Assembly: GCA_021787365.1 (NCBI GenBank)
Contig: JAJYMB010000062.1
Coordinates: 1-64,000, forward strand
Reading direction: 5' to 3'
Origin: Actinomycetes bacterium
Lineage (GTDB): Bacteria; Actinomycetota; Acidimicrobiia; Acidimicrobiales; Palsa-688
Length of the DNA: 64,000 nt
Positions 21,360 through 27,840 of the stretch are shown in pieces (positions within the stretch are counted from its first letter, which is position 1; each line of letters begins with the position of its first letter). The notes below the pieces were generated by a model. It searched no databases. It was not told where the DNA came from and worked only from the letters and a program-made list of their open reading frames with translations. The translations under genes were made by a program, and so were the position numbers.

Positions 21360-21577
21360 CGCACACCAGCCTATGTCGCCCCCCGCGCCCGGGAACCTCG
21401 CCCCAACGTCACCACGACTGCGCGGCCTTCCGGGGGCCGGCACATGGTCGCAGTTGGCACCCGGGAAAGACGCCTGAATAGCTCATATGTGACCGCTAAC
21501 AGCGACCTACGGGCCCATACCGCCGACCCATCTTGCGTGCACCAGAGGAGGGCCGGCTGGGCCAAACTGGGTGGCAG

Positions 21578-22426
21578 ATGCCCCAAGACCTTCGGGTCAG
21601 CTCCCGCAATGCGGTGTTCCAGCAATGGCGTTCCCTGCTCACCAACCGCACCAAGCGCCGGCGTTCGGGGGAGTTCCTCGTCCAGGGCGTACGGCCGGTC
21701 ACGCTGGCTGTAGAGCGTCGCTGGCCCCTGCACGCCGTCCTCTACTGCGCTGGCCCGCGGCTCTCGAAGTGGGCCCACGGTGTCCTCGATGAGGTCAAGG
21801 CCCCCCGCTTTGCGGTCGCCCAGGAACTGATGGAGGAGCTCGGCGGCAGGAAAGGCTCGGCCCCAGAAGTGCTGGCTGTTGCAGAAATGCCGCCGGACGA
21901 CCTCTCCCGGGTACCAGCCGGACCGGACATGTTGGTCGTCGTCCTCGACCGTCCGGGTGCGCCGGGGAACATCGGCACGGTGGTGCGTTCGGCCGACGCG
22001 TTCGGCGCGAGCGGTGTGGTCCTCACCGGTCATGGTGCCGACCCCTACGACCCCAAGGCCGTGCGGGCGAGCACAGGGTCGATCTTCGCCGTGCCCGTGG
22101 TCACGGTACCTGGGCACCGGGAGGTCATCGCCTGGGCGGGGACGCTCCGCCAAGCCGGGGTCTCGGTCCGGGTCATCGGCACAGACGAAGGCGGGGACGT
22201 GGAGGTCGCCGACCTCAACTGGCGCCGGCCCACGCTGGTGGTTGTCGGCAACGAGTCACAAGGGCTCGCCTCTGCCTGGCGGGCAGCTTGCGAACGGGTC
22301 GCCCGGATCCCCATGGGCGGCACCGCTTCCTCCCTCAACGCCTCCCTCGCCGCGACGATCGTGCTCTACGAGGCCGCCTGGCAGCGCCGTCGGGGCAGCC
22401 GGGCCCAACCAGCACTGCCAACGTGA
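21578..22426 (+). CDS. SpoU/TrmH-family RNA 2'-O-methyltransferase
   Basis: About 282 residues. An N-terminal substrate-binding region is followed by the SPOUT trefoil-knot motifs PGNIGTVVRSADAFGASGVVL, VVGNESQGL and IPMGGTASSLNASLAATIVLYE. The enzyme probably methylates a ribose in rRNA or tRNA using S-adenosylmethionine; which nucleotide cannot be told. The ATG at 21578 is preferred; an upstream TTG at 21533 is possible. A second, RlmB-like family member lies at 26429-27373. Confidence 0.87.
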   Translation: MPQDLRVSSRNAVFQQWRSLLTNRTKRRRSGEFLVQGVRPVTLAVERRWPLHAVLYCAGPRLSKWAHGVLDEVKAPRFAVAQELMEELGGRKGSAPEVLAVAEMPPDDLSRVPAGPDMLVVVLDRPGAPGNIGTVVRSADAFGASGVVLTGHGADPYDPKAVRASTGSIFAVPVVTVPGHREVIAWAGTLRQAGVSVRVIGTDEGGDVEVADLNWRRPTLVVVGNESQGLASAWRAACERVARIPMGGTASSLNASLAATIVLYEAAWQRRRGSRAQPALPT

Positions 22427-24461: not shown

Positions 24462-26405
24462 ATGGGCTTCTCGCCCTACCAGGCGACCTCGCTCGCTGCA
24501 GCGGTCGATCTGAACGGCCCCGGTCATTACCTGCACTGGTCGATATTCAACGTCTCGCTCGCCAACCTGGTCCTGATCGCCGTTATGGTCGTCATCTTCG
24601 GCGCGGCCATGCTCGTGCGTTTCCCAGACGGCCACGACCGAGGCAACGGCCATGCAGCCCACGGCGACGGGGCCGGGACACCTGGCAGGACCGCCCACAG
24701 GCGCGAAAGGGCCGCCGAGGACGAGGACGACCCGCCTGCCCATGTACTGGTGCCAGGCGGGGGGGCCGCCGCCTCCCTGGACGGGGACCGTACCTGGACC
24801 GGCGCCATCCGGCGCGCCGGGCTGCGTCTCCTCCCGCCCGGCAAGCTCCTCCCCGACCGCCAGCCGGCTTACGTGGCGTCTTGGGTCTACGTCTTCGGCG
24901 TGGCGACGCTCGCCGCGTTCGGCCTTGCCATCGTCTCGGGCTTCTTGATCGCCCTCGGGGGCCCCGACTGGTGGCACACCAACCCGGTAGGGCACTTCTT
25001 CAACAGCCTGCACCTCTGGTCGGTCGAGATGTTCATGGCGTTCATGGTCATCCACCTGTGGGGCAAGTTCTGGATGGCGGCGTGGAGGGGCCGGCGGGCG
25101 CTCACGTGGTTGACGGGCGGTCTCGCCTTCATGGCGTCGATCGTCGAGTGCTTCACCGGGTACCTCTCCCAGCAGAACTTCGACTCGCAGTGGATATCGA
25201 CCAATGGCAAGGACGCCATCAACGCGACAGGTCTCGGCGGCTTCTTCAACCTCATGAACTTCGGCCAGATGCTGCTCTGGCACATCGTCCTCCTCCCGAT
25301 CGTGCTCGTCGCGATCGTCGGCGCTCATGTGCTGCTGGTGCGCATCAGGGGCGTTTCCCACCCCCTCCCCCAAAAACGGCCCCGCGGGCGGGAAGCCCGC
25401 CGGGCGGCCCGAGCCGCCGACAACGCCGACTGGACCGGCCCCACGCGCGTCTACGACATCGCCAAGGAGGCTGTAACTGCGACGGCGGTCGCAACCGCCT
25501 TGGTCGTAGTGCTCGCCGCCGTGCTGTCGTCGCCCGACGCGCCCTCCATATCGATCGGGACTTGGGCCAGGCTGGCGCCCGCGGACTTCATGGCTACCGC
25601 CACGAGTGAGCTGGCAGGGACGAGCGAGACCGCCACGTACGGCCCGCCCTACAACAACGCGAGCGGCAGCACCCAGCGCATCGGGATCTCCTGGGAGAAG
25701 CTGGGGGGTGTCCGTGTGCCGATCAACGCGGCCCAGGACTTTGTCTTGGGGCCCTTGGAGAAGATCGCTCCTACCCAGCCCGTTCTCGCCAGCGCGCTCA
25801 GCCGTTACCGGGCCGCACCCGCAAGTACGCGCTCGGCTTGGGAAACGGCGTACTCCAAGGCCCTGGACCACGTGAAGTTCCAGGGTGGCACGCCGGTCGT
25901 CCCCGCCGCGGCCGACGGGCCGGTGCCGACCCTCATTTCCACCGAGCTCTCCCTCGCTCGCGGTGGCGCGCTCGACACCGACTTGCTCGCCAACCGTTCT
26001 TTCTACGGGACAGACTTCACCAAGCCGCTGTTGTTCCTGGAAGACGGGGAGTACTTCGCGCAGCAAGCCCAGGCGCAGCACCTGGAGGGCAACCAGTGGG
26101 GCGTCATGAACGAGACGGGCAGCTACCCCGGCCAGCCCTGGCTCTGGTTGTACACCCTCTGGTACCAGGTGCCCGGCTTCGACAACTCGGCCAATGTCGA
26201 CCTGATCGCCATCTACTTGACCGGTGCTGCCACCATCTTGTTGCTCGCTGTGCCCTTCATACCGGGCCTGCGCGATATCCCCGAGGTGGTGCCGCTCCAC
26301 CGGGTCATCTGGCGGAACTGGCACCGGCGGGCCGGCGGGCCCAGGACGCCGGACTTCGGTTTGCCTGCCTCTCACGAGCCGCGACCAAGCGAGATCGGGA
26401 GGTAA
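24462..26405 (+). CDS. Membrane cytochrome b (bc-complex type) with a large extra-membrane domain
   Basis: A 647-residue protein with a strong AAAGGAGGG site before its ATG. The cytochrome-b core has the four haem-ligand histidines: His184 and His198 (14 apart, HLWSVEMFMAFMVIH) and His274 and His289 (15 apart, as in cytochrome b6). An N-terminal helix and a 70-residue charged loop precede the core. After a fifth helix comes a roughly 230-residue soluble region without cysteine, then a last helix near residue 590. No CxxCH or Rieske motif is present, and no Rieske or cytochrome c gene is next to it. It is probably part of a quinol-oxidising or ferric/nitrite-type chain, but its partner is unknown. 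Confidence 0.87.
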   Translation: MGFSPYQATSLAAAVDLNGPGHYLHWSIFNVSLANLVLIAVMVVIFGAAMLVRFPDGHDRGNGHAAHGDGAGTPGRTAHRRERAAEDEDDPPAHVLVPGGGAAASLDGDRTWTGAIRRAGLRLLPPGKLLPDRQPAYVASWVYVFGVATLAAFGLAIVSGFLIALGGPDWWHTNPVGHFFNSLHLWSVEMFMAFMVIHLWGKFWMAAWRGRRALTWLTGGLAFMASIVECFTGYLSQQNFDSQWISTNGKDAINATGLGGFFNLMNFGQMLLWHIVLLPIVLVAIVGAHVLLVRIRGVSHPLPQKRPRGREARRAARAADNADWTGPTRVYDIAKEAVTATAVATALVVVLAAVLSSPDAPSISIGTWARLAPADFMATATSELAGTSETATYGPPYNNASGSTQRIGISWEKLGGVRVPINAAQDFVLGPLEKIAPTQPVLASALSRYRAAPASTRSAWETAYSKALDHVKFQGGTPVVPAAADGPVPTLISTELSLARGGALDTDLLANRSFYGTDFTKPLLFLEDGEYFAQQAQAQHLEGNQWGVMNETGSYPGQPWLWLYTLWYQVPGFDNSANVDLIAIYLTGAATILLLAVPFIPGLRDIPEVVPLHRVIWRNWHRRAGGPRTPDFGLPASHEPRPSEIGR

Positions 26406-26428: not shown

Positions 26429-27373
26429 CTATCGAGCGTGGCGCGGCGGGAGGGCCAAGGACCGCCGGCGGGCCACCTCGAAGCAGGCAACGGCGCAGGC
26501 GGCGGCGACATTTAGCGACCCGACCCCTCGGGCGGCCTCTGACATAGGGATCCGAGCGAGGGCGTCGCAGCGCGCCCGGGAAAGCCGCGAAAGCCCCTGG
26601 CCCTCCGAGCCGAGCACCAAGGCCACGCTTTCGTCGAGCAGAGGCGATGCCCAGAGGTCGTCCTCCGCAGCTGGGTCGAGGCCGACCACCCACAAGCCGG
26701 CGCTCCTGATTGCCGCGAGCGCGCTCGGGATCCCGGGCACTTGGGCCACGGGCAGGGTCTCGGCCGCGCCGGCGGCAGCCTTCAGCGCCGCCGGGTTGAG
26801 AGGGGCTGAGCGGTGCCGTCCGACGACCACCCCAGCGGTCCCGGCGCAAGCCGCGCTACGCAGTATCGAGCCCAGGTTGCCAGGGTCGGTGACCCCGTCG
26901 AGGACCAGCAACAACAAGCCGGCACTCGAGCTGAGCATCGCCTCTAGGGGCACGGCCGGCAACGGGTCGGCCCAGGCGAGGACTCCCTGGGCTGAACTCG
27001 TACGGCTGGCAGTCGCGAGTTGGTGGGCCTCCTTCAGTTCGACCTGGACGCCTCGCTGGCGGGCAAGCGAGACCAGCTCCCGCAAGGGCCCGGCGGCCAG
27101 CCTTGCGTCGGCCCAGAGCAGCCGGCAACGGCGGCGCTGCGCATCGATGAGGCGGTAAACGGCGTGGTACCCCTCGACCTGCTCGCCGCCCAGCCCCTCG
27201 GCCGGAGCCGCCGGTCTTTCCGCGGGCCTCGATGGGCGCCCCGGTCTCTGGGCACCGTACCTGCCCGGAAGATTGCCCGGTCCTCTCTCACCGGCGCCGT
27301 CAGGGGTGCCGGGGTGCCGGCCGGCGGGATTGCTCGTCCTTCCCGCACCTCGCCCAGCGTCGGGACGCTTCAT
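26429..27373 (-). CDS. rlmB: 23S rRNA (guanosine-2'-O-)-methyltransferase RlmB-like
   Basis: About 314 residues starting at the ATG that overlaps the ispF stop (ATGA). A Pro/Arg/Gly-rich leader of about 60 residues precedes the substrate-binding domain (VEGYHAVYRLIDAQ). The SPOUT domain follows, with DPGNLGSILRSAACAG, LVLGSEGQGLS and IPMSEAARGVGSLNVAAACAV. RlmB methylates G2251 of 23S rRNA. In many actinobacteria cysS sits between ispF and rlmB; here the two are directly fused in an operon without it. Confidence 0.9.
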   Translation of the reverse strand: MKRPDAGRGAGRTSNPAGRHPGTPDGAGERGPGNLPGRYGAQRPGRPSRPAERPAAPAEGLGGEQVEGYHAVYRLIDAQRRRCRLLWADARLAAGPLRELVSLARQRGVQVELKEAHQLATASRTSSAQGVLAWADPLPAVPLEAMLSSSAGLLLLVLDGVTDPGNLGSILRSAACAGTAGVVVGRHRSAPLNPAALKAAAGAAETLPVAQVPGIPSALAAIRSAGLWVVGLDPAAEDDLWASPLLDESVALVLGSEGQGLSRLSRARCDALARIPMSEAARGVGSLNVAAACAVACFEVARRRSLALPPRHAR

Positions 27374-27840
27374 GGTGCTTCGAGCAGCGCTACCGCCAGA
27401 CAGGCGATCCCCTCCCGCCGGCCGAGAGCACCCAAGCCTTCGCCCCTCTTGGCTTTGATCGAGACCGGCGCCCCGAGCGCGGCACCCAGGCGGCCCTCCA
27501 TCTCGGCCTTGTGGCCCGCGAGGCTCGGGGCCTCGGCGATCACGGTGCAGTCCACGTTGACCACGCGCCAGGTCGCCGATACCCTCCTCAACGCGGCCTG
27601 GAGCAGGGCGATGCTGTCGGCACCCTCCCAAGCGGGGTCGCCGTCTGGGAACATCGCCCCGATGTCACCCAGGCCGGCCGCTCCCAAGAGGGCGTCAGTG
27701 ACGGCGTGGCACACGACATCTGCGTCGCTGTGGCCGGAAAGCCCGGGACCGGCGAGGTGCACCCCTCCAAGCACGAGAGCCCGGGCGGGGTCGTCGCTGA
27801 AGGGGTGGATATCGAAGCCCTGGCCGACGCGCAGGCTCAC
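27370..27840 (-). CDS. ispF: 2-C-methyl-D-erythritol 2,4-cyclodiphosphate synthase
   Basis: A 156-residue MEP-pathway enzyme. The metal-binding motif GQGFDIHPF is at the start, GHSDADVVCHAVTDAL and GDIGAMFPDGDP follow, and the C-terminal motif is IKAKRGEGLGALGRREGIA. It makes the cyclic diphosphate from the CDP-ME 2-phosphate product of the pathway. The GTG start overlaps the ispD stop (GTGA), and its own stop overlaps the rlmB start, so the three are translated together. Confidence 0.95.
   Translation of the reverse strand: MSLRVGQGFDIHPFSDDPARALVLGGVHLAGPGLSGHSDADVVCHAVTDALLGAAGLGDIGAMFPDGDPAWEGADSIALLQAALRRVSATWRVVNVDCTVIAEAPSLAGHKAEMEGRLGAALGAPVSIKAKRGEGLGALGRREGIACLAVALLEAP

Follow-up and report, generated by a model that had tools for sequence, protein, structure and literature searches.

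Since the Q cycle depends on cytochrome b as well as on the Rieske protein, the two are usually regarded as an inseparable pair. A conserved branch of cytochromes b with both pairs of haem ligands, living in genomes in which no Rieske protein is found, raises the question of what cytochrome b does alone. We analysed a gene of this family in a 64,000-nucleotide stretch of actinobacterial DNA (hereafter the window), together with its relatives in Actinobacteria and CPR bacteria. On balance, we lean slightly towards the reading that the window protein forms the catalytic core of a two-haem membrane complex that is linked to quinone and independent of Rieske; that this complex is separate and does not use Rieske is well supported. 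A search of open-licence papers, covering titles and the starts of abstracts, found no description of the protein.

The gene starts with ATG and encodes a product of 647 aa according to the ORF list and its translation (Table 1). Pfam gave a Cytochrom_B_N_2 match at residues 190-333 (E 8.7e-13) and a Cytochrome_B match below threshold. The earlier note had described the four haem histidines as intact, and an alignment of 81 full-length fused homologues (the window protein and 80 loci) bore this out: His184, His198, His274 and His289 were conserved in 100, 100, 99 and 100% of the proteins, respectively. These residues form the two haem-ligand pairs of helices B and D that characterize cytochrome b/b6, and they align onto the histidines of two b6f-type controls. 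The spacings of 14 and 15 are those of the b6 type, the value of 15 belonging to helix D. With both pairs of haem ligands present, the 647-aa protein is by sequence a cytochrome b of the b6 type. A full-length AlphaFold2 model of middling confidence (pLDDT 72.6) aligned with cytochrome b chains over residues 118-624, in both halves (VIA Z 15.6), matching 279 residues of 6adq_B and 285 of 6q9e_b1 (Z 15.6 for both); the fold predicted for the two halves is that of cytochrome b. Because the model aligned from residue 118 to about 620, we read the last part as a second half of cytochrome b, shortened to two helices and with an insert of ~220 residues in the ef loop. The model also predicted an extra N-terminal helix at about residues 33-51, absent from the earlier note, and W26, N35 and M42 of this segment were invariant in alignment A3 (62 of the 80 loci; alignment A4 comprised 53 of the 80, and L141 was left out). 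Around the locus, SpoU-family RNA methylase genes (window 21533-22426 and 26429-27631) flank the gamma-glutamyltranspeptidase and cytochrome b genes.

Table 1. Coordinates of features in the window (plain numbers) and at related loci (L numbers)
Feature	Position	Strand	Basis
Fused cytochrome b gene, 647 aa: one-helix peptide, b6-like part and subunit-IV-like part with insert	24462..26405	+	ORF, Pfam, model
N-terminal segment, residues 1-55, predicted extra helix	24462..24626	+	Model, alignment A3, separate ORFs in relatives
b6-like four-helix core, residues 118-300	24813..25361	+	Pfam, model, structure alignment
Haem ligand His184	25011..25013	+	100% of 81; aligned to b6f control His
Haem ligand His198	25053..25055	+	100% of 81; b6f control alignment
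SQQNFDSQW motif, cd1/Qo position	25167..25193	+	Gap-free against LPMNQLSYW of b6f controls; conserved in 81
Haem ligand His274	25281..25283	+	99% of 81; b6f control alignment
Haem ligand His289	25326..25328	+	100% of 81; b6f control alignment
Helix E equivalent, residues 333-355	25458..25526	+	Model; aligned to control b6f subunit IV
Cysteine-free inserted domain in ef loop, residues 357-577	25530..26192	+	Alignment, fold and profile searches
NETGSYPGQPWLWLY motif before last helix, residues 550-564, PEWY place	26109..26153	+	Alignments; equivalence by chain order
Helix F equivalent (last helix), residues 579-599	26196..26258	+	Model secondary structure
NQR2/RnfD-FAD/NAD reductase fusion and FMN_bind relative near divergent CPR cytochrome b	L280:6659-12479, L314:10902-16034
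~190-aa protein, examples	L125:2176-2781, L136:8583-9134, L281:6831-7394, L311:4190-4744
Cupredoxin and ~630-aa ORF pairs	L311:11175-13447, L313:8207-10479, L315:8318-10584, L320:8481-10744, L322:3073-5339, L323:6763-9053		By eye

The side of the protein that would normally face the Rieske head is altered. SQQNF stands gap-free opposite LPMNQ of the two b6f controls, showing that the LP..Q-type cd1 motif has been replaced, and these controls have longer ab and cd loops. The PEWY place, assigned by chain order only because the control b6f rows are unaligned there, is taken by NETGSYPGQPWLWLYTLWYQ, and E551 of the NETGSYPGQPWLWLY motif was invariant (alignment A3). According to passages of PMC9162462, the second PEWY residue and the Rieske histidine both contact the Qo ligand. 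The replacement motifs are themselves conserved across the fused family, which argues for changed function rather than decay. The window family shares with b6f cytochrome b6 and subunit IV the four-helix b6 core, both haem-ligand pairs and the helix D spacing of 15, and the b6 and subunit-IV parts are separate genes in some of its relatives. In contrast to the b6f type, the window protein comes without a Rieske or cytochrome f gene, has a replaced cd1 motif, an ef-loop insert of ~220 aa and an extra N-terminal helix, and lacks the helix A cysteine for haem cn (WLYCFGG in both b6f controls), which was absent from all nine family rows aligned.

The soluble domain spans ~221 aa (residues ~357-577) between the predicted helices at 333-355 and 579-599. 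The cysteine-free character and the position before the last helix claimed in the earlier note were both confirmed, with a cysteine within residues 355-575 in 0/81 homologues, while the length of 230 residues was corrected to ~221. A single histidine, His540, is conserved in the insert (91%), and the 81 homologues contain no conserved metal-binding set there. The count of basic residues per loop is consistent with an insert on the outside, matching the prediction from homology. The domain was also modelled in isolation, as had been proposed; the AlphaFold2 model reached pLDDT 67.4, and Foldseek returned 44 matches, none at E <= 0.001. An hmmsearch of the PDB with the insert profile gave ribosomal S20 only (E ~1), the same search with the profile of the C-terminal half gave no matches, and no Pfam family or PDB fold was found for the insert. 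The insert might bind an unrecognised cofactor. It is also present in a divergent CPR type of ~465 aa by profile comparison (hhalign probability 96, E 2.5e-9); this type is about 30% identical to the window type and has its own invariant motifs at the corresponding places.

Of at least 513 relatives, the 80 nearest make up the set of loci, and genes in relatives were called with a simple ORF caller, which yields some false ORFs and starts. Loci L316-L318 and L321 were covered by scripted searches. The host genome itself holds three copies, namely the window gene, a fused copy that is 88% identical and runs off the contig end (C41; L006:2-1564), and a copy split into two genes (C140; L005:94-2240). 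A relative with a best E <= 1e-50 was found in 23/32 genomes of the host's taxonomic family (G000-G031) and in 3/29 other genomes sampled from the order (G039, G050 and G052). In a sample of the phylum, 17/396 genomes matched at E <= 1e-15; six of these matches were ~30% identical cytochromes b, at whose loci a c-type-like gene, a Rieske-like gene and b6 are consecutive (by eye), leaving 11 in the protein family, the window's genome included. Split forms were also found. Two loci (L060 and L102) encode three ORFs, a one-helix peptide of 57-72 aa, a b6 protein of ~220 aa and a C-terminal half of 317 aa; at two others (L104 and L106), ORFs were called for the separate peptide and for b6, and the C-terminal half showed up as a match. 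A separate ORF of 57-73 aa lies beside the b6 gene at these four loci and at L101. At L099 the segment corresponds to an out-of-frame overlapping ORF. In G139, a single-contig genome of 2.158 Mb, the peptide is kept as an overlapping ORF in another frame and precedes a b6/IV fusion. One CPR genome, G483, holds both a divergent copy and a two-gene copy.

A tree of 62 rows was built by a quick method and has long outgroup branches; its rows were the window, all 14 CPR loci, every locus whose number is a multiple of 3, five chosen loci and further ones selected manually. One branch (support 100) among the split forms united the three-part fusions, 27 actinobacterial and 17 from CPR bacteria, and the 17 fused CPR rows formed one branch (support 100) inside the actinobacterial fused branch, with weak support for the branches immediately around it. 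The two-part fusion of G139 was placed apart from the three-part fusions, so b6 and IV may have been fused more than once. A plasmid search gave no match for the fused protein or the separate C-terminal half. With its forms of three, two and one genes, the family provides an example of how a respiratory complex was fused and moved between phyla.

The earlier note had reported no neighbouring Rieske or cytochrome c gene, and we found no match to PF00355 or to PF13442, the only cytochrome c family searched, on C32, the contig of the window. The host genome has three PF00355 matches, on contigs C75, C30 and C54, and two PF13442 matches, both on C54. On C54, QcrB, Rieske and the two cytochrome c matches lie together on one strand, forming a QcrC-QcrA-QcrB locus that includes a cytochrome b, so the host bc1 complex does not need the window protein. 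Actinobacterial QcrB of the bcc-aa3 supercomplex shares the cytochrome b fold with the window protein, and mycobacterial QcrB chains were among the best structural matches to its model; QcrB, however, sits with Rieske and cytochrome c matches, whereas the window protein does not. Among the 632 ORFs within five called ORFs of the 80 fused genes, there was one CXXCH match and one Rieske-like motif match, the latter in a doubtful ORF (L186_09). In CPR carriers, whose genomes are mostly incomplete MAGs, PF00355 was found in 0/12 and 0/21, thus 0/33 tested, while control genomes gave 10/14 positives in the same searches. The 33 comprise 27 of 28 Saccharimonadia carriers and six further CPR carriers; the one left out (G721) counts as a carrier on a 96-residue match (E 3.5e-16). 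The first 12, which include G459, labelled Levyibacteriota, and G461, whose locus is labelled 'bacterium', gave one PF13631 match each, no PF13442 match and no bd oxidase. A Rieske/c1 operon using this protein in relatives, which the earlier note had named as evidence against its proposal, was not found.

These data bear on two readings that would return the protein to conventional biology. In one, it belongs to a conventional bc complex and borrows QcrA (Rieske) and QcrC from another contig, and a PF00355 protein was indeed present elsewhere in the genome in 13/13 actinobacterial carriers tested (4/4 and 9/9). PF00355 also includes Rieske proteins outside bc complexes. We regard this reading as very unlikely, and a hidden bc1 in trans was rejected, because 0/33 CPR carriers have a Rieske match, the Qcr locus already has its cytochrome b and the cd1 motif is replaced; together with the shortened ab and cd loops, the same findings support a separate, Rieske-free complex. 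In the other, the CPR copies are mis-binned actinobacterial contigs, which the prevalence of MAGs among the CPR genomes would allow and which would undo the Rieske-free argument. We give this scarcely any credence, since the fused CPR rows branch together apart from the actinobacterial rows, the G+C content of the 14 CPR loci is 0.36-0.53, and three genomes carry the gene on one contig with a CPR-type oxidase operon.

The co-occurrence of partners in genomes, a check proposed earlier, pointed to a haem-copper oxidase. We sampled 294 Saccharimonadia genomes with a carrier threshold of E <= 1e-15 and obtained 28 carriers (15 close fused and 13 divergent, one of the latter, in G721, being a short match). 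COX1 exceeded the cut-off in 101/294 genomes and was commoner in carriers (22/28) than in others (79/266; Fisher P = 6e-7, with kinship ignored and the MAGs incomplete). The association was seen with the close fused form (14/15 versus 87/279) and was weak for the divergent type (8/13, P = 0.07); COX1 was likewise present in 11 of the first 12 CPR carriers tested. The gene and COX1 lay within 7 kb of each other in only 3/14 close-fused COX1-positive carriers. In G593, G695 and G747, a distance of 1.1-3.0 kb separates the gene from the closest member of the oxidase operon, and COX1 lies 2.0-4.9 kb away. COX1 was named by Pfam, subunit II by Pfam matches just under the cut-off and the other operon genes by eye. 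The G593 island additionally encodes a Pyr_redox_2 protein and an FAD-linked oxidase. The analysed loci include 18 CPR relatives of subunit II, of which 15 have no cysteine and three have one; with the CuA cysteine pair in none, they cannot bind CuA, and we infer a quinol oxidase. Passages of the CPR respiration papers PMC6031116 and PMC8407418 propose a chain of NADH dehydrogenase and bo3 oxidase for Saccharibacteria, and between them those of these two and PMC12592800 suspect an external quinone or find no quinone synthesis genes. The word Rieske does not occur in these passages of the first two papers, nor bc1 in those of the third. The window family would add a component to the chain outlined there (PMC6031116, PMC8407418), and its Rieske-free carriage in CPR bacteria together with an oxygen-consuming enzyme suggests a respiratory complex not yet described. 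Of the 'separate quinone-handling complex' proposed in the earlier note, the separate, Rieske-free part stood, while quinone handling is suggested by the cytochrome b fold and by co-occurrence with an oxidase free of CuA cysteines.

Soluble carriers and neighbouring genes were also screened. A cupredoxin (PF13473, E <= 0.001, by eye) was considered as p-side carrier and rejected; it matched 5/15 close-fused CPR carriers versus 93/294 genomes overall, indicating no link with the close-fused type. The divergent-type carriers did show a link: 7/13 matched, and these carriers make up six of the 14 genomes with a PF13473 match at E <= 1.2e-19 (G473, G483, G590, G690, G721 and G730). In all six, the cupredoxin-domain protein of ~125 aa adjoins a ~630-aa ORF, by eye a copper P-type ATPase, and the pair is therefore read as copper resistance rather than as a p-side carrier. 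No conserved operon partner emerged, the largest shared cluster covering only 14/80 loci with an ABC-transporter ATPase (by eye) as its representative. A 367-aa neighbour common to eight loci has only a sub-threshold NAGPA match and resembles regional synteny.

Taken together, the protein is real and conserved, its partners are unlike those of bc complexes, and there is a fair chance that it forms a new complex. In the mechanism we propose, the two b haems would act as a transmembrane wire, one end of which would exchange electrons with the quinone pool. The other end would lie in a remodelled p-side pocket formed by SQQNFDSQW and NETGSYPGQPWLWLY and roofed by the inserted domain, whose place in the chain suggests a lid over the Qo opening. 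The insert would fill the docking place of the Rieske head, which makes a bifurcating Q cycle unlikely. No tested soluble carrier is common to the CPR carriers, so that a small molecule or a protein from outside is the probable partner on the p side. For the direction of flow, a possible but doubtful proposal is that an extracytoplasmic one-electron donor reduces quinone and so feeds the quinol oxidase, by analogy with superoxide oxidase; quinol-driven transfer in the opposite direction, to an acceptor outside the cytoplasm, is about equally likely. Our guess favours the outside donor, given the quinol oxidase that accompanies the gene in CPR bacteria and the lack of a shared carrier among the soluble ones tested. 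Superoxide oxidase (SOO/CybB) is a minimal four-helix protein, unlike the window protein, and its likeness to the latter is analogy only; PMC11869295 describes it as a membrane protein whose direct oxidation of superoxide goes with the reduction of quinone. We see an even chance that the family represents an undescribed complex, a Rieske-free cytochrome b of one polypeptide or three subunits whose docking site for Rieske is closed by a new cysteine-free domain. In this view the complex moved laterally from Acidimicrobiia to CPR Saccharimonadia, where it would form a minimal respiratory chain together with a quinol oxidase and might include a new two-helix subunit.

Two further readings concern the route of the electrons. 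In a quinol-dependent reductase, quinol would be oxidised and its electrons would be taken up on the outside by a soluble acceptor, for example Fe(III), which is abundant in acid, iron-rich habitats. This reading, which we hold only tentatively and think rather doubtful, would suit carriers that include an Acidiferrimicrobium and bog and palsa MAGs, and it is likewise compatible with the want of a tested soluble p-side carrier common to the CPR carriers. However, the insert, free of cysteine and with His540 as its one conserved histidine, offers no conserved metal-binding set, and the enrichment of the quinol oxidase suits a quinol-producing role at least equally. An extracytoplasmic flavin route, from an NQR2/RnfD-reductase fusion and an FMN-binding protein through cytochrome b to quinone, is unlikely. 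The divergent cytochrome b of G483 does adjoin FMN_bind, an ApbE-like protein (by eye) and an NQR2-FAD-NAD fusion, G473 has such a fusion and an FMN_bind relative 5-7 kb away, and part of PMC6031116 proposes an NQR-like protein of Saccharibacteria as a member of the electron chain. Yet the fusion was found at 2/13 divergent-type loci and beside 0/80 fused loci, and the sister fused CPR loci L174 and L194 have only a ~237-aa relative of the reductase part. Named families were also compared. The best NCBIfam match was ExtP (NF040969), the b-type cytochrome of Geobacter ext operons; at 41 bits, far under the curated cut-off of 290 bits, identity with ExtP was rejected, as was identity with SoxC, whose match is far below its cut-off. 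According to part of PMC5877670, the Geobacter ext cluster encodes multiple putative c-type cytochromes, whereas none was found at the window locus.

A protein of ~190 aa (about 180-225 aa) recurs beside the gene; by eye, both of its ends are hydrophobic, and it matches no family in Pfam or NCBIfam. It lies at most two ORFs away in 7/80 fused loci (L125, L136, L137, L143, L152, L170 and L190), also within two ORFs in L048, and farther away in two more of the 80 (L147 and L183). It was additionally found, again at most two ORFs away, at 2/13 divergent-type loci (L281 and L311), and a copy in G458 (L267) is ~6 kb from COX1. The family thus spans both phyla, at actinobacterial, fused-CPR and divergent-CPR loci, and this recurrent neighbour is a candidate subunit. 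As a separate observation, a protein with Ricin_B_lectin and CHAP domains (Pfam; L283:8511-9560) adjoins cytochrome b in one CPR genome, and a similar protein (by similarity; L284:6829-7851) does so in a second.
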